From: Thermococcus sp. M39
GTDB lineage: Archaea; Methanobacteriota_B; Thermococci; Thermococcales; Thermococcaceae
DNA length: 64,000 nt
NCBI RefSeq assembly: GCF_012027325.1
Contig: NZ_SNUG01000002.1
Span: forward strand, 327,211 to 391,210
Direction of reading: 5' to 3'
The notes under the pieces were generated by a model. The model had not been told where the DNA came from. It saw only the letters and a program-made list of their open reading frames with translations, and ran no database searches. Below, in pieces: positions 2,813-36,918 of the stretch. The position numbers were made by a program, and so were the translations under genes. Positions within the stretch are counted from its first letter, which is position 1. Every line of letters starts with the position of its first letter.

Positions 2813-3002
2813 TCCGTTTATCCTATTTAAATGCCATCTCTTGCCAGTTCTTCAAGAGCTTAGTTCCTTATTCCCTTTACCAGAAGAGCTTCGCTTCCTA
2901 ACCTCTTCGAATTTGTTCAAGCTTAAAAAGAGTTTGTGAATGCAAAAACCACTAGTTCACAAATCCTCAGTTCTGTTGAGATATAAAAGAAAAAACAAAA
3001 AC

Positions 3003-30352: not shown

Positions 30353-30362
30353 TGCATATGCA
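30353..30362 (+). promoter_or_regulatory. Operator A1: GCATATGC palindrome upstream of the ATPase operon
   Basis: TGCATATGCA, extended with T-rich left and A-rich right arms, lies just before the TATA-like TTTTTTAAG (about 30366-30374). The same core recurs at 35996-36011 and 36873-36892, always within a promoter of this gene block. Likely a repressor or activator site. Confidence 0.7.
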
Positions 30363-30378: not shown

Positions 30379-30392
30379 TTAGGCTTCCCTAA
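30379..30392 (+). promoter_or_regulatory. Operator A2: TTAGG-N4-CCTAA box
   Basis: TTAGGCTTCCCTAA, a perfect inverted repeat between the TATA box and the start codon at 30410. The half-sites are those of DtxR/IdeR-family iron-box sequences, so iron-responsive repression is suggested. A second copy is at 35973-35986. Confidence 0.65.
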
Positions 30393-30409: not shown

Positions 30410-31270
30410 ATGCAGATAGCAGTTAGCGGAGGAAAAGGAGGAACTGGAAAATCAACGATTGCAATTAACTTGGCTATTGCTTTAAGAGATTACTTTGATT
30501 TGGCACTTGCTGATTTGGATGTTGAGGCACCAAATGACCATATACTCTTAGGAGTGGAGCTTCAAAATGAAGAGCCTGTCGAGCTTTTTATGCCACGTTT
30601 TGACTATTCCAAATGTATCAGGTGCAGAAAATGTGCAGAGGTTTGTGAAGAGCACGCAATAATTGCTATGAAAGATGGAACACCGTTTTTGATGCCAACA
30701 CTGTGCTCCTGTTGTGGTGCCTGTCAGATAGTTTGTCCCGTTGAGGGAGCAATCCTGGAGGGTAAAAAGCTCATGGGTTATACATATCTGACAGAAACTC
30801 CCTATGGATTTCCGCTCGTTACAGGGAAGCTCTTGGAAGGGGAAGAGAGGGCAATGCCAGTAGTTGTAGCAGCAAAGAAGAAAGCCCAAAAGCTAGAGAA
30901 AGAGCTTTTAATGGTGGACACAGCTGCAGGAACGAGCAACACAGTATCAAAAGCTCTAGAGGATTCTCAACTTATAATCGCTGTTACAGAGCCAACTCCA
31001 TTAGGCTTGCATGACCTTGAGCTTATCCTTGAACTGTCAGAGCTCATGAAAACTCCAGCTTGGATTATAGTCAATAGGAGTGATTTAGGGCCAATAGAAA
31101 AGGTGAAGGAAATAGCGAGCAAATATAATGCCGAAATCGTTGCTGAGATCCCATACAGCGAAAACATAATCAAAAGCTATGTTGAAGGAAGGCCCATAAT
31201 TCTAAGCAGCTGTGAAGAGGCCGAGATTTTCAGAAAGCTTGCTGAAAAAGTTGCTGAGTATTTGGGGTGA
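30410..31270 (+). CDS. ParA/MinD-type ATPase with inserted 2[4Fe-4S] ferredoxin domain (first copy)
   Basis: 286 residues. The deviant Walker A GGKGGTGKST begins at residue 7. A ferredoxin insertion in the middle has CIRCRKCAEVCEEHA and CSCCGACQIVCPVEGA, sufficient for two [4Fe-4S] clusters. DTAAGTSNT is the switch II region. Proteins of this make-up occur in pairs in the orange-protein operons of Desulfovibrio and beside NifX-type proteins in many anaerobes. It probably couples ATP hydrolysis to Fe-S or metal-cluster handling. GGGGGTGA precedes ATG 30410; two operator palindromes lie in the promoter. Confidence 0.9.
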   Translation: MQIAVSGGKGGTGKSTIAINLAIALRDYFDLALADLDVEAPNDHILLGVELQNEEPVELFMPRFDYSKCIRCRKCAEVCEEHAIIAMKDGTPFLMPTLCSCCGACQIVCPVEGAILEGKKLMGYTYLTETPYGFPLVTGKLLEGEERAMPVVVAAKKKAQKLEKELLMVDTAAGTSNTVSKALEDSQLIIAVTEPTPLGLHDLELILELSELMKTPAWIIVNRSDLGPIEKVKEIASKYNAEIVAEIPYSENIIKSYVEGRPIILSSCEEAEIFRKLAEKVAEYLG

Positions 31271-31275
31271 TAGAA

Positions 31276-32163
31276 ATGCAGATTGTCATTGCAAGCGGTA
31301 AGGGTGGAGTCGGGAAATCAACAGTTGCAGCTTCGCTATTATACCTCCTAAAGGAAAAGTACAGCTTCGTCGCTGTTGATGCAGATGCCGATGCCCCAAA
31401 TCTGCATCTCCTCCTTGGAGTCGAACGCTGGGAAGAAGAAAAAGAGCTGACTGGTGCAAAGGTTGCAAGGATAAATCCCGATACCTGCATCAGATGCGGA
31501 ATCTGTGCAGAAAGGTGTCCATACGACTGCATAAAGCTCATTGATGGAGAATATGTTGTGAATAAGCTCACATGTGAAGGCTGTGGAGTGTGTAAACTTG
31601 TGTGCCCAGTTAAGGGAACAATAACTCTTGAAGAAGTTCACTCTGGAGTGATAAGGAAAACCACAACAAAATACGGATTCCCACTAATTTCAGCTCAGCT
31701 GGACGTTGGGAGGCCTAATAGTGGGAAGCTCGTTACAGAAGAGAAGGAATGGGCGAAGAAGATAATGAAAGAGCAAAAGCTGGAGCACATGATAGTCGAT
31801 TCAGCTGCGGGGATTGGGTGTCAAGTAATTGCAAGCGTCGGTGGAGCTGATGTCGCAATCCTCATTGCAGAGCCCACTCCAGCATCACTGAGCGATGTTA
31901 AAAGGGTTTACAAGGTTGTCCAGCACTTTAGGGAGCCAGCTTATTTGATAATCAACAAAGCGGATATAAATCCAGGATTCAAAGCCCTTGAGAAGTGGGC
32001 TGAGGAGGAAGGAATACCCATATTGGGTAGAGTTCCCTATGACAGAGCAATACCCGAAAGCATGACAATGCTCAAACCTGTTGTGGAGGCGTTTCCAGAT
32101 TCAAAAGCCAGCAGAGCACTTAAAGAAATTGCAAAAGCTGTGGAAGATGAAATTTTGAAGTAG
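31276..32163 (+). CDS. ParA/MinD-type ATPase with inserted 2[4Fe-4S] ferredoxin domain (second copy)
   Basis: 295 residues, paralogue of the preceding gene. It has GKGGVGKSTVAASL as Walker A, CIRCGICAERCPYDC and CEGCGVCKLVCPVKG as ferredoxin motifs, and DSAAGIGCQVIASV as the switch II segment. The two proteins may form a heterodimer, since ParA-type ATPases work as dimers. The GGGGTGATAG that contains the stop of the first gene serves as its ribosome-binding site, with ATG at 31276, so the pair is translationally coupled. Confidence 0.9.
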   Translation: MQIVIASGKGGVGKSTVAASLLYLLKEKYSFVAVDADADAPNLHLLLGVERWEEEKELTGAKVARINPDTCIRCGICAERCPYDCIKLIDGEYVVNKLTCEGCGVCKLVCPVKGTITLEEVHSGVIRKTTTKYGFPLISAQLDVGRPNSGKLVTEEKEWAKKIMKEQKLEHMIVDSAAGIGCQVIASVGGADVAILIAEPTPASLSDVKRVYKVVQHFREPAYLIINKADINPGFKALEKWAEEEGIPILGRVPYDRAIPESMTMLKPVVEAFPDSKASRALKEIAKAVEDEILK

Positions 32164-33461: not shown

Positions 33462-33815
33462 CTATTCCTCGTTATCTGAGCTTTGAGTCTTTGGCACCTC
33501 ATTTCCCTGAGCCAAAATTATCAGCTCTCTCCCCTCAACAAGCATCTGTGCAACTTTCTTCCTTGCTGAGCTTAAAGCTCTCCAGACCGTTCCTCTTGAA
33601 ACGCCCATTCTCTTTCCTGCTTCTTCTTGAGTTAGTCCTTCATAATCCACTAATCTCAATGCCTCGAACTCCTCATATGTCATGAAAATCGGCGGCTGGG
33701 GAGGTCCAATAGGCGGGCGCGCTGGGTAGAAGTGCCTAATCTCCGGAATAAGACCAATAAAGCGCATCTTTCTCCTTCGTCCTCTGCCTCTACCCCTTCC
33801 CATTCCCCAAGGCAT
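33462..33815 (-). CDS. DUF134 helix-turn-helix protein
   Basis: 117 residues from ATG 33815, with GGTG upstream. A basic, Gly/Arg-rich N-terminus (MPWGMGRGRGRGRRRK) is followed by the conserved DUF134 region with FMTYEEFEALRLVDYEGLTQ and an HTH (EEAGKRMGVSRGTVWRALSSARKKVA). DUF134 genes often sit beside NifX-type and MinD-type genes in anaerobes. It is a candidate regulator of the GCATATGC palindromes in this block; its own promoter does not contain one. Confidence 0.85.
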   Translation of the reverse strand: MPWGMGRGRGRGRRRKMRFIGLIPEIRHFYPARPPIGPPQPPIFMTYEEFEALRLVDYEGLTQEEAGKRMGVSRGTVWRALSSARKKVAQMLVEGRELIILAQGNEVPKTQSSDNEE

Positions 33816-34018
33816 TTTAACACCAAACAAGAATTCTCATCTAGGATTTATAGAGATTTCCCTTCAAGTTCGTTTGAAACCATCAAAGATTTTTTAACAC
33901 AATTAACCAAATCAAGTTTAGATGTGATAAAAATGAATAAGTTTATTAACAGCCATTGTTGTGCTGATTATTGTTTAGAGTCATTGTTGCTTGGAACTAC
34001 AATACGGAGGAGAAGAAA

Positions 34019-34285
34019 GTGATCATACTTAAAGCTACATTTAGAATGGGAGGTGTAACCTACGAGGGATATGAAGTGCAAGGAGACACTTTAGTTTTCA
34101 AATTCAAGCGGACTGGAAACTTCTTCACCCAAGCAATAGTGGAGAAGGAAGCTAAAGCAGAAGTTGATGAGTTTCTGGCTAAGGTCATTATGGAAGTTGA
34201 CACCAACGGAAATGTTAAGAGATATGAGGCAAAATTAATTTTTGATGATGGCAATGAGAAAATTTACAAAGCCTCAGAGCTTTGA
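34019..34285 (+). CDS. Conserved hypothetical protein, 88 residues
   Basis: Starts at GTG 34019 with GGAGG eight bases upstream, in preference to ATG 33971. The protein is predicted mostly beta with charged strands (VIILKATFRMGGVTYEGYEV, then VIMEVDTNGNVKRYEAKLIF). I do not recognise the family. Its end overlaps the next small zinc-finger gene by 38 bases. Confidence 0.55.
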   Translation: MIILKATFRMGGVTYEGYEVQGDTLVFKFKRTGNFFTQAIVEKEAKAEVDEFLAKVIMEVDTNGNVKRYEAKLIFDDGNEKIYKASEL

Positions 34286-34406
34286 GTTTGTGTGTCCTTT
34301 CTGTGGATATAGAGCAAAGAGCCTTGAAAAGCTTAAACAACATATTTTAGAAAGGCACACCCTCAATAGAGAAGATATCAGAGGTCCTAGGTTCATCAAG
34401 GTTTAA
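34248..34406 (+). CDS. Small C2H2-type zinc-finger protein, 52 residues
   Basis: Reads from ATG 34248 (or ATG 34254). A single zinc finger is complete: Cys16-P-F-Cys19, a 12-residue helix region, then His32 and His37 (FVCPFCGYRAKSLEKLKQHI). Small C2H2 proteins are a recurrent class in Thermococcales and may bind DNA. The overlap with the preceding gene suggests coupled translation. No strong ribosome-binding site is seen. Confidence 0.65.
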   Translation: MAMRKFTKPQSFEFVCPFCGYRAKSLEKLKQHILERHTLNREDIRGPRFIKV

Positions 34407-34464
34407 TGCAAAGTGCTTAGAAAGGTTAATAACTTCTCAAAAAGAACTTTCTGTGGTGAGCAGA

Positions 34465-34920
34465 ATGGAATTTAAAGTTGTAGAGAGAAAGATAGGATGG
34501 CACAAGGACTTTGACAGTTCGCATTTTTTGGCTCTGCCCTATGACAGCAAATGCTTGAGAATTCACGGGCATACTTACAACGTTGATGTTGAGATTTGGG
34601 GAGACTTAGATGAGAGGGGCATGATTTTTGACTTCAATCACTTAAGCAACCTCATTAAGGAAGTTGATCACCGCATTTTAACAAGTGCAGAGTGGGTTAA
34701 AGAAGAGGGAGAATACATAGTGATTGAAAAGAACAATAAAACTTTAAAACTCCCAAAAAAAGACGTAGTCCTAATTGATGCTCCCAATGTTACTGCTGAG
34801 CTTATAGCGGAGTGGTTTGCCAAGAAGATAGCAGAAAAAGCCGGGAAAAATGTAAAGCGAATAAAAGTCAAAGTCTGGGAAGACCCAAGGAGCTATGCCG
34901 AAATAGTATTAGAACGTTAA
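34465..34920 (+). CDS. 6-pyruvoyl-tetrahydropterin synthase / QueD family protein
   Basis: 151 residues from ATG 34465, preceded by GGTGA. The zinc ligands are visible in DFDSSHFL and IHGHTYNVDVEIWG, and the family residues in DFNHL and DHRIL. This family works on 7,8-dihydroneopterin triphosphate in folate, tetrahydropterin or queuosine/archaeosine biosynthesis. In Thermococcales one paralogue serves methanopterin-like or folate-like synthesis and another archaeosine; which one this is cannot be told. Confidence 0.85.
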   Translation: MEFKVVERKIGWHKDFDSSHFLALPYDSKCLRIHGHTYNVDVEIWGDLDERGMIFDFNHLSNLIKEVDHRILTSAEWVKEEGEYIVIEKNNKTLKLPKKDVVLIDAPNVTAELIAEWFAKKIAEKAGKNVKRIKVKVWEDPRSYAEIVLER

Positions 34921-35005
34921 CGTTTTAATTTTTGGACATTATTTTGATAATTTTGTTCCAAAAAAATTAAATTCTGTTTACCTTATTTCTTTTGAGGTGA
35001 AAAAC

Positions 35006-35428
35006 ATGAGACTCTCAAGGGGAAGGAACTTCATGTTTAGAATCCCTGAAGGGGAAGAGTTTCTGACATTTATCAACAAATTTGCAGAAAAGAACAACAT
35101 ACTTATTGGAACAGTGACAGCAATTGGAACGCTTAGAAACCCAAAAATCGGATATTTTGAAGAAGAAAAAGGCGAATATAAGGTTATTGAGTTAAGTGGT
35201 GTTTACGAGCTGCTCTCCGCGTTGGGTAACATCAGCCTAAAGGACGGGAAGCCCTTTGCCCATATCCACGTAGCTTTGGGAGACAAGGAAGGTAAAGTCT
35301 GGGGTGGTCACTTAATTGAGGGAGAAGTATTTGTCGCTGAGGTTATCATTCATGAACTACTTGGAGAGCCCTTGGAAAGAAAGCCTCAAGAAAATGGATT
35401 ATCCCTCTGGGATGCTGAAAAGCTTTGA
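35006..35428 (+). CDS. PCC/PPC-domain protein (DUF296)
   Basis: 140 residues from ATG 35006 with GAGGTGAAAA upstream. The plant-and-prokaryote-conserved domain covers nearly the whole chain: MRLSRGRNFMFRIPEGEEF, then IGTVTAIGTLRNPKIGYF and the metal-binding-like HIHVALGDKEGKVWGGHL. In bacteria and archaea these stand-alone domains form trimers; the function is unknown, DNA binding being inferred only from plant AT-hook proteins. Confidence 0.8.
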   Translation: MRLSRGRNFMFRIPEGEEFLTFINKFAEKNNILIGTVTAIGTLRNPKIGYFEEEKGEYKVIELSGVYELLSALGNISLKDGKPFAHIHVALGDKEGKVWGGHLIEGEVFVAEVIIHELLGEPLERKPQENGLSLWDAEKL

Positions 35429-35534: not shown

Positions 35535-35951
35535 TTACCATCCCCCTCTACCACGTCTCATTCCTCTTCCCATACCACGACCCATACCTCTACCTTCAGC
35601 TCCAAGGATTGGCTGTGTTAATTCCCCTCTAAGATAAGCATGAACAGCTTGTTCAACTGTCATAGTCGGTGGTGCTGAGACGAATCTTATGCCCGCAGCT
35701 TGAAGAACTTGTGAAGAATTTGGGCCAAACTGTCCAGCTATAACAACATCTGCACCCTCATCTATACAGAACTGTGCTGCCTGAATCCCCGCACCTCTTG
35801 GGGCTGAGTAGCTTGAATTCTGGACCACTTGAACGTTTGTTATGTTTCTATTTTCATCAACATCAACAATTGTGAATGTTGGAGCCCTCCCAAAAGATTG
35901 GCTTACGAAATCGTCTAGTCCCCCTTTTCTCGTAGCTATGATAAACCTCAT
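35535..35951 (-). CDS. NifX/dinitrogenase iron-molybdenum cofactor domain protein with Gly/Arg tail (IssA/ORP-like)
   Basis: 138 residues from ATG 35951, with GGAGGTGAAAAT upstream. Residues 1-110 are a NifX/NifB C-terminal-like domain (SQSFGRAPTFTIVDVDENRN, DVVIAGQFGPNSSQVLQAAG). The tail GRGMGRGMGRGMRRGRGGW is strongly cationic. P. furiosus IssA, a thioferrate-storing protein, has the same layout, and Desulfovibrio ORP shares the domain. Its promoter carries both operator palindromes. It could store Fe-S polymer or deliver a cofactor. Confidence 0.82.
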   Translation of the reverse strand: MRFIIATRKGGLDDFVSQSFGRAPTFTIVDVDENRNITNVQVVQNSSYSAPRGAGIQAAQFCIDEGADVVIAGQFGPNSSQVLQAAGIRFVSAPPTMTVEQAVHAYLRGELTQPILGAEGRGMGRGMGRGMRRGRGGW

Positions 35952-35972
35952 TATTTTCACCTCCGCTTAAAA

Positions 35973-35986
35973 TTAGGACAGCCTAA
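35973..35986 (-). promoter_or_regulatory. Operator B2: TTAGG-N4-CCTAA box
   Basis: TTAGGACAGCCTAA is a perfect inverted repeat between the TATA-like CTTTTTAAG (35988-35996 on the minus strand) and the start codon at 35951. The arrangement is the same as at the ATPase operon: GCATATGC, TATA, TTAGG box, gene. Confidence 0.65.
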
Positions 35987-35995
35987 CTTAAAAAG

Positions 35996-36011
35996 TTTTG
36001 CATATGCAAAA
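35996..36011 (-). promoter_or_regulatory. Operator B1: GCATATGC palindrome
   Basis: TTTTGCATATGCAAAA is a perfect 16-base palindrome directly upstream of the TATA box of the NifX-type gene and just after the stop of the 72-residue membrane-protein gene. Confidence 0.7.
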
Positions 36012-36014
36012 AAA

Positions 36015-36233
36015 TTAAAACCACATTCTCGATCTTAAAAACTCCCTCAGCAGAAGCAGAACCACCAAGGCTATCACATACGGTGCTGCAACGAGGAACA
36101 GCTTAATTAAGATGTACAGTATCGCAATTAGAAACAAAAGGTCCACGATTCCAAAAAATCCGCCGAATCTTCTAAAGCCCCAGAAGCTTCTCCCATATCC
36201 CCTTCCGTATCCTCTACTCATCCATCTCGGCAT
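36015..36233 (-). CDS. Small membrane protein with Gly/Arg/Tyr-rich N-terminus
   Basis: 72 residues. The first 25 are rich in Arg, Gly, Tyr and Trp (MPRWMSRGYGRGYGRSFWGF), followed by a long hydrophobic stretch able to form two helices (IVDLLFLIAILYILIKLFL, then VIALVVLLLLREFL). It lies between the two NifX-type genes, 31 bases after the upstream one, and is likely cotranscribed with it. It may anchor the tailed NifX proteins at the membrane; this is inference. Confidence 0.65.
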   Translation of the reverse strand: MPRWMSRGYGRGYGRSFWGFRRFGGFFGIVDLLFLIAILYILIKLFLVAAPYVIALVVLLLLREFLRSRMWF

Positions 36234-36264
36234 TGTATCACCTCAAAAATGGAAAAATAGGAAA

Positions 36265-36840
36265 TCACCACCAGCCATAAAGCCACCTAAGCGTTCTCCT
36301 GCTGGGCATTCCTGTCCACGGGCAGTATCCCAAGCGAGCGCCCCAGCCTCTTCCTCCTCTGCCGCCACCTCTTCCCCAACCACGGCCTCTACCCCAACCG
36401 TAGCCAAAGCCATAAGCTGGGATCGGATAAGCTGGCCCATAGGCTGGTGCTGGTGGAATTGGATATGCTGGTGCTGTAACTTGAGGCTGAGCTGTTTGAG
36501 GAGCACCCTTAATCATACTCTCAACAGCTTCTTTAATTGGTATTCCTGGTGGGAATGTGTAAACATTAATTCCTGCAGCTTGGATTGCTCCTAAAGCGTT
36601 TGGCCCAAGCTGGGGTGCTATTACTGTATCAACGCCTTCATTTATGAGCATTTGCACAACCATAGGACCAGCTCCACTTGGAGCAGTAACTGCCGGATTC
36701 TGAATTGTCTTGACATCCTTTATTTCACCGTTTTCAACTTCAATTATAGTGAAAACTGGAGCTCTAGCGAAAACTGGTGCAATTGTGTCCTCTAATCCCC
36801 CATTAGCTGAGCTTGGAACTGCAATTTTCATCCTCACCAT
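36265..36840 (-). CDS. NifX-domain protein with Tyr/Pro linker and Gly/Arg/Trp tail (IssA-like)
   Basis: 191 residues from ATG 36840, spaced well from GGAGGTG. The N-terminal 110 residues are a NifX-type domain (SSANGGLEDTIAPVFARAPV, GVDTVIAPQLGPNALGAIQA). A Pro/Tyr-rich linker with repeated AYPIP and AYG motifs leads to a tail of Gly, Arg and Trp (YGWGRGRGWGRGGGRGG), ending in CPWTGMPSRRTLRW. Tail-driven assembly is known for IssA. It is the longer of the two paralogues. Confidence 0.82.
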   Translation of the reverse strand: MVRMKIAVPSSANGGLEDTIAPVFARAPVFTIIEVENGEIKDVKTIQNPAVTAPSGAGPMVVQMLINEGVDTVIAPQLGPNALGAIQAAGINVYTFPPGIPIKEAVESMIKGAPQTAQPQVTAPAYPIPPAPAYGPAYPIPAYGFGYGWGRGRGWGRGGGRGGRGWGARLGYCPWTGMPSRRTLRWLYGWW

Positions 36841-36872
36841 ATTCATCACCTCCACTTCTTAATCCTTTTCTA

Positions 36873-36892
36873 TTTTGTGCATATGCACAAAA
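36873..36892 (-). promoter_or_regulatory. Operator C1: extended GCATATGC palindrome
   Basis: TTTTGTGCATATGCACAAAA is a perfect palindrome (a further A/T pair outside also matches) upstream of the longer NifX-type gene. Here it lies downstream of the TATA-like GCTTTTAAG (about 36895-36903), the reverse order to sites A and B. Confidence 0.7.
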
Positions 36893-36904: not shown

Positions 36905-36918
36905 TTCGGTTGACCTAA
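36905..36918 (-). promoter_or_regulatory. Operator C2: TTAGG-N4-CCGAA box (one mismatch)
   Basis: On the minus strand TTAGGTCAACCGAA lies on the upstream side of the TATA box. It differs by one base from the symmetric TTAGG-N4-CCTAA pattern. It is also close to the divergent hef promoter, whose TATA is TTTATAAATA at about 36927. Confidence 0.5.

Follow-up and report, generated by a model that had tools for sequence, protein, structure and literature searches.

A candidate iron-sulfide storage locus of Thermococcaceae: an IssA/SipA orthologue, a second tailed NifX-type protein and a conserved membrane peptide in Thermococcus sp. M39

Genes and features of the locus

The stretch of DNA analysed here (the window) comprises 64,000 nucleotides of contig NZ_SNUG01000002.1 of Thermococcus sp. 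M39. On its minus strand NifX2, a 72-residue membrane peptide and NifX1 are encoded in this order (Table 1), and the three ORFs are real and lie where an earlier sequence-only reading had placed them. Both long products belong to PF02579 (78.8 bits for NifX1 and 73 bits for NifX2, cut-off 26.3), a family with five genes in this 2.28 Mb genome. The coordinates in Table 1 are counted from the conserved Met; the NifX2 ORF opens with GTG at 36855, 8 codons before that Met, and the NifX1 ORF (35535-35960) opens at 35960. A Thermococcus metagenome genome (L140) shows 95% identity in NifX2. In several genomes the gene maps place NifX1 kilobases away from NifX2, under its own promoter.

A PTPS/QueD-like protein, a PCC-domain protein and a small zinc-finger-like ORF are conserved neighbours at 34242-35428; neither of the two promoter motifs described below accompanies the PTPS and PCC genes. 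The radical-SAM gene beside the DUF134 gene (L050:4677-5794) is broken into two ORFs in this genome. At three other loci (L147:3696-4184, L149:1264-1758, L187:15385-15885) the downstream NifX protein seems to be a NifX1/NifX2 hybrid, perhaps originating from gene conversion.

Table 1. Features of the locus in window coordinates
Feature	Position	Strand	Evidence
Palindrome core, ATPase promoter	30353..30362	.	exact core
Iron-box-like TTAGGN4CCTAA, ATPase promoter	30379..30392	.	motif search
MinD-type ATPase A with 4Fe-4S ferredoxin domain (Orp3/Orp4-like)	30410..31270	+	CbiA, ParA/NUBPL and Fer4 matches
MinD-type ATPase B with 4Fe-4S ferredoxin domain	31267..32163	+	domain matches
DUF134 helix-turn-helix protein with Gly/Arg N-terminus; candidate regulator	33462..33830	-	PF02001, 90 bits vs 27
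NifX1, second tailed NifX-type protein	35535..35951	-	138 aa from conserved Met; PF02579, conserved GMGRG tail
NifX1 Gly/Arg/Met tail	35538..35609	-	orthologue comparison
Iron-box-like TTAGGN4CCTAA, NifX1 promoter	35973..35986	.	motif search
Palindrome core, NifX1 promoter	35999..36008	.	exact core
Membrane peptide, 72 aa, Gly/Arg/Tyr N-terminus	36015..36233	-	family-wide conservation, hydrophobicity, predicted helix
NifX2, IssA/SipA orthologue by sequence	36265..36831	-	188 aa from conserved Met; PF02579; published IssA features
Tail of NifX2, comprising a Pro/Tyr linker, a Gly/Arg/Trp stretch and a conserved C-terminal motif that bears the sole Cys	36268..36495	-	
20-bp palindrome TTTTGTGCATATGCACAAAA, NifX2 promoter	36873..36892	.	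exact core and family-wide occurrence
Iron-box variant TTAGGTCAACCGAA, upstream of NifX2 TATA-like box	36905..36918	-	orthologous promoters

NifX2 as an orthologue of IssA

IssA/SipA (PF2025) of Pyrococcus furiosus is known as a thioferrate nanoparticle protein forming particles of 20-300 nm around thioferrate. According to the accessible text of the paper (PMC5524996), its domain of about 109 residues is followed by a Pro-rich part and by a Gly/aromatic/cationic tail with the only cysteine, the tail being conserved in Thermococcales. The same text describes assembly as driven by the iron-sulfide polymer: the tail-less domain already oligomerises given iron and sulfide, the apo-protein is monomeric, and the tail is proposed to bind thioferrate. 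The mineral-bearing particles were reported to be homomeric; the description of purified ones names IssA, iron and sulfur, and immunoprecipitated particles yielded no further protein. IssA sedimented with membranes, was not released by detergent and was purified through size and density (PMC5524996).

NifX2 has the N-terminal IPR003731/PF02579 domain followed by a Pro-rich stretch and a Gly/aromatic/cationic tail holding the Cys. Judged from its sequence, it is the IssA/SipA orthologue, the comparison being with the published description of IssA and not with the PF2025 sequence. In the AlphaFold model residues 1-112 mostly have pLDDT >80, with values <50 for 115-171 and 173-176. Foldseek matches of this model include TM1816, PH0822, TM1290, ORP, MTH1175, MJ0327, NifX and NafY.

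The sequence-only reading had proposed co-assembly or phase separation of the three neighbouring proteins. Assembly holds for the longer one as an IssA orthologue and is thus already published for one of the three, but as a mineral-driven process, and the immunoprecipitates oppose stoichiometric co-assembly (PMC5524996, accessible text). That text does not mention a second tailed NifX, a membrane peptide or a promoter signature, and a term search of it gave 0 occurrences of 'operon' and 'PF2026'. Nor do the peptide, the operon, the paralogue tail or the palindrome appear in the IssA/SipA/thioferrate literature that we could reach; SipA papers in subscription journals may differ in this respect.

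Gly/Arg tails

Low-complexity Gly/Arg ends on both NifX proteins and a similar N-terminus of the peptide had been noticed earlier, and their densities are indeed above chance. We ranked 171 non-overlapping ORFs of at least 60 aa from the window and five other loci of the same genome by Gly+Arg density in 20 residues. The four highest values belong to NifX2 (0.85), NifX1 (0.75), the DUF134 protein (0.65) and the peptide (0.60), the fifth being 0.45. A GRGxGRG-coding pattern has 7 matches genome-wide (1 in the reversed control), 5 of them within NifX1, NifX2 and DUF134; the remaining two lie beside another PF02579 gene and on the strand opposite a long unrelated ORF. The signature is not limited to the three proteins noticed earlier: DUF134, which that reading had missed along with the operator-like palindromes, carries it as well, and Trp/Gly/Arg mini-proteins occur at other palindrome sites.

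NifX1 ends with GRGMGRGMGRGMRRGRGGW. Among orthologues from 56 chosen loci, 41 of 46 NifX1 proteins have a tail of at least 20 aa, on average 48% Gly, 17% Arg and 10% Met, and in five it is short or absent. All 51 NifX2 orthologues have a tail of at least 20 aa, made up of 22% Gly, 12% Arg, 15% Pro, 9% Trp and 8% Tyr with a median net charge of +10. A Cys lies within this tail in 49 of 51 cases, and 47 of the 51 proteins have exactly one Cys. Of the final 28 residues of NifX2, RGWGARLGYCPWTGMPSRRTLRWLYGWW, the majority hardly vary among orthologues; by sequence, this end is more than low complexity. The AYPIP repeat ascribed to the longer protein is present here (AYPIPPAPAYGPAYPIPAYG), but orthologues keep only a Pro/Tyr/Ala-rich linker and not the repeat itself.

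A conserved membrane peptide

The peptide begins with MPRWMSRGYGRGYGR, an MPR start being found in 40 of 42 orthologues. Strong hydrophobicity marks the second half (Kyte-Doolittle maximum over 19 residues at least 2.50 in 42/42), the AlphaFold model predicts one helix (residues 27-71), and Y40, K44 and Y52 are invariant in an alignment of 18 rows. A single-sequence search found the peptide in 76 of 94 Thermococcaceae genomes at E <=0.1, and a profile found it in 74 of 115 phylum genomes at E 0.001, all of them Thermococcaceae. Single-sequence matches with E >0.001 (G002 and G046 have only such matches) were taken as noise, lacking confirmation by the profile. Up to E 1 the peptide had no match in Pfam or NCBIfam, and its sequence points to a Thermococcaceae family that is new here.

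The peptide is conserved and usually encoded beside IssA, with cationic Gly/Arg chemistry common to both. It is not essential, because some genomes (G002, G048, G071, G072, G081 and G093) hold IssA and NifX1 without it. In G093 a different small protein with MPWGRGRWWMWKSWPGNGPFSYLPPWQRPGWLYGR lies between NifX2 and NifX1.

Palindrome and iron-box-like motifs in mirror-image promoters

The window has three exact TGCATATGCA cores, located before the MinD-type ATPase genes (30353), NifX1 (35999) and NifX2 (36878). The longer palindrome TGTGCATATGCACA occurs in 85 of 94 family genomes in one to three copies each, with 0 in the reversed control in all, and in none of the 21 phylum genomes outside Thermococcaceae. 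DUF134, a candidate binder of the palindrome, is equally near-universal, being present in 85 of the 94 genomes too. In the M39 genome exact cores were also seen in L046, L047 and L048; these fall within or beside unrelated genes, and we took them as chance.

Promoter and orthologue counts come from 56 loci picked since most of them hold these genes, and do not represent a random genome sample. For NifX1, NifX2 and the ATPases only phmmer matches of at least 90 bits were counted, gene starts were trimmed by hand-written patterns, and the own-genome loci L044-L048 were left out of the promoter counts. The exact core lies within 250 bp before 45 of 51 NifX2, 7 of 46 NifX1 and 3 of 34 ATPase A genes, and before none of the peptide (42), ATPase B (31), DUF134 (37), PTPS (24) and PCC (25) genes. 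It also precedes 6 of 16 hef genes, where, judged by position, it belongs to the divergently oriented IssA promoter. All 51 NifX2 promoters have the shorter core GCATATGC, the six without an exact core carrying near-copies. This 8-bp core is kept in only 15 of 46 NifX1 and 14 of 34 ATPase A promoters and is absent from the other 31 and 20, respectively.

Where the palindrome occurs, its placement is strict. IssA promoters have a TATA-like box 13-17 bp upstream of the palindrome centre (50/51); among promoters having the shorter core, the box lies 13-15 bp downstream of the centre in 13 of 15 NifX1 and 14 of 14 ATPase A cases.

A second motif, TTAGGN4CCTAA, is situated opposite the palindrome, near the start codon, in 24 of 34 ATPase A and 19 of 46 NifX1 promoters. 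Its variant TTAGGN4CCGAA is found in 43 of 51 IssA promoters; in the nine that were viewed it lies on the upstream side of the TATA-like box. Genome-wide TTAGGN4CCTAA is mildly enriched (12 sites vs 7 in the reversed control). Ten of the 12 sites were viewed: they include those of feoAB, a ZIP transporter gene, a gene whose product resembles, by eye, a metal-binding lipoprotein, and a short PF02579 gene and its radical-SAM-like neighbour, while others are situated within or beside unrelated genes. NifX1 and ATPase A are likewise preceded by the motif. We take TTAGGN4CCTAA to resemble the core of DtxR/IdeR operators, presumably being shorter than the classical box. For both motifs, we infer the repressing or activating sense from position.

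A possible wider regulon and mini-proteins

We fetched 20 further palindrome regions with 21 sites from family genomes. In 11 of the 20 a CDF cation exporter gene follows or borders the palindrome (L114, L116-L121, L123-L125 and L128, with the palindrome near position 3000; PF01545 confirmed for L119, the others assigned by eye from their sequence likeness). In L128 the palindrome lies between the exporter and another gene. In L126 and L127 a site lies at the MinD-type ATPase genes, in L129 at a short PF02579 gene (confirmed), and in L130, L132 and L133 at FmdE-type genes, the first of these judged by eye and the other two confirmed. L115 has a SLAC1-type channel gene at the palindrome, and L122 an SBF-type transporter gene. 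CDF exporters at the IssA palindrome suggest that metal export and IssA are under a common regulator.

In L201 and L204 members of a mini-protein family, MPRGWGRG...PWPGNGPFSYLPPWQRPGW, begin 13 and 10 bp from the palindrome core; the family is also encoded behind the third PF02579 gene of this genome, is found in 11 of 94 genomes and has no Pfam or NCBIfam match. The two small Trp/Gly/Arg-rich proteins encoded behind that third gene (L044:8926-9132 and L188:1374-1535; contig C1 of this genome, ~154.2-154.6 kb) share PWPGNGPFSxLPPWxRPGW. After the palindromes at L126:5130 and L131:3078 there are only Gly/Arg reading frames that are short or interrupted, perhaps the remains of mini-protein genes. 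A third NifX-type paralogue behind a palindrome (L044:9132-9749; L055:15107-15694) has a Cys-containing tail, CIHYKxGKCEFWNLxVHADDPACPFF, and not a Gly/Arg one.

Induction by sulfur in relatives

In the Palaeococcus pacificus RNA-seq data, as given in the accessible part of PMC6981617, the top sulfur-induced genes are PAP_06520 (SipA, log2 6.23) and PAP_06515 (Fe-Mo cofactor-binding, 4.29), next to which stand PAP_06425 (CobQ/Fe-S, 3.74), HypF (3.43) and PAP_06430 (CobQ/Fe-S, 3.41). The presumed Pa. pacificus genome G002 has the gene order ATPase A, ATPase B, NifX1, NifX2 (L179 and L053). Read through this genome and the published excerpt, IssA, NifX1 and both ATPase genes are very probably four of the five most sulfur-induced Pa. 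pacificus genes. Since G002 carries the genes with the common promoter signature in order, they very probably represent the co-induced set. Thus an IssA-centred conserved gene set is apparently switched on together; G002 itself lacks the peptide.

In the Thermococcus onnurineus proteome SipA and 'SipB' are up on sulfur (PMC4463584, accessible text). In the available parts of the two sulfur papers (PMC6981617, PMC4463584), one labels TON_0916 'ATPase C-terminus (SipB)' and the other reports no SipB in Pa. pacificus. SipB (PF2026) may correspond either to the membrane peptide or to NifX1; G002 has NifX1 and lacks the peptide.

A probable storage locus for iron sulfide

Overall, the locus can probably be considered an iron-sulfide (thioferrate) storage locus of Thermococcaceae. 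This reading draws on well-supported elements: the identity of IssA, the conservation of operon and tails, the common promoter signature and co-induction in a relative. NifX1, the peptide and the two MinD-type Fe-S ATPases probably serve the same task as IssA. We join NifX1 and the ATPases to it because of the two-motif promoter signature in common and their sulfur co-induction in Pa. pacificus, and the peptide because it lies within the IssA operon and shares its tail chemistry. NifX1 may be a smaller, Met-rich-tailed companion scaffold or carrier, and the ATPases may load or unload iron-sulfur clusters by analogy with Orp3/Orp4 as described in the accessible text of PMC6345978.

It is possible, if less than even in our estimate, that the peptide uses its cationic Gly/Arg end to bind the same polyanion and retains particles, whether nascent or mature, at the membrane. 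Such tethering would keep particles near iron entry and sulfide production by the electrostatics proposed for the IssA tail. Two observations count against a tether: the IssA immunoprecipitates free of other protein (PMC5524996, accessible text) and the genomes that have IssA without the peptide. An 8-kDa peptide of such hydrophobicity could, however, escape mass spectrometry based on trypsin. As for control, a regulator bound to the palindrome just downstream of the TATA box would keep the IssA operon repressed as long as sulfide and iron are not in excess, and NifX1 and the ATPases would be gated by a DtxR-like protein that binds the iron box.

A different division of labour, which we regard as unlikely, would make NifX1 and the ATPases an ORP-like carrier system that matures other Fe-S or Mo/W proteins, IssA storage being a separate function and the peptide a membrane factor with no relation to it. 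In favour of this, NifX1 is matched by the ORP structure 2wfb (E 6.5e-20) and is often encoded away from IssA, and the ferredoxin-domain ATPases fit the description of Orp3/Orp4 in the available text of PMC6345978; however, NifX1 and the ATPases have the promoter signature in common with IssA and are co-induced with it, and NifX1 carries a cationic Gly tail, which Orp9 is stated to lack in the same source. Phase separation by protein alone, involving the three Gly/Arg proteins and anchored by the peptide, could draw on the low-complexity stretches common to all three and on the IssA tail, predicted to be disordered in the AlphaFold model, but it is improbable in view of the iron- and sulfide-dependent oligomerisation of the tail-less domain, the monomeric apo-protein and the mineral-bearing particles reported as homomeric (PMC5524996, accessible text). 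We set it aside because orthologous IssA is known to assemble around mineral.

In composition the Gly/Arg stretches presumably resemble RGG motifs, and the DUF134 protein has a helix-turn-helix match, both of which would suit RGG-like nucleic-acid binders within a stress- or RNA-related gene set. We hold this to be very improbable: the conserved Cys/Trp tail end is not RGG-like, and the IssA tail is proposed to bind thioferrate in particles described as IssA, iron and sulfur (PMC5524996, accessible text).

Returning to the storage reading, we speculate, rather doubtfully, that Thermococcaceae possess a membrane-attached mineral compartment in which tail chemistry works in cis (IssA) and in trans (the peptide, the second scaffold and the mini-proteins), and in which one dedicated palindrome regulon reads sulfide and iron via two motifs mirrored around the TATA box. 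If the peptide does hold thioferrate at the membrane, archaea would own a membrane-attached iron-sulfide store. Candidates that the locus offers are the conserved membrane peptide, a further scaffold with a tail, the pair of Fe-S ATPases, metal exporters and two operator motifs of strict geometry. Some Thermococcus species are genetically tractable, and therefore each part of the locus can be deleted or tagged.

Comparison with known systems

The domain common to NifX1 and NifX2 is also that of NifX, NifB and NafY of the nitrogenase pathway, the difference being that the proteins studied here carry conserved tails where those have radical-SAM or nitrogenase partners. We set aside a role in nitrogenase cofactor synthesis because the NifB profile score (19.2) is far below the cut-off of 343.65. 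The TTAGGN4CCTAA motif is similar to the core of DtxR/IdeR iron boxes and, judged by motif positions, precedes feoAB in this genome.

The Desulfovibrio ORP complex (Orp3, Orp4, Orp5, Orp8 and Orp9/MrpORP) is alike in combining NifX-family proteins with MinD-type 4Fe-4S ATPases, and the gene maps likewise show such ATPases beside a NifX-type protein. The present locus, in contrast, has no MrpORP fusion (profile NF041136 gave partial matches only, 35.5-69.4 bits vs a cut-off of 450) and no sigma-54 control, as the host is an archaeon, and it has Gly/Arg tails and a membrane peptide. We know of no ORP with a cationic Gly tail.

The closest likeness is that of NifX2 to IssA/SipA, with a NifX-type domain, a Pro-rich linker and a Gly/aromatic/cationic tail with the only Cys; for NifX2 itself we see no essential difference. 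With IssA already known, what is new is the peptide family, the palindrome, the mirror geometry around the TATA box and the sites before CDF exporters and Trp/Gly mini-proteins.
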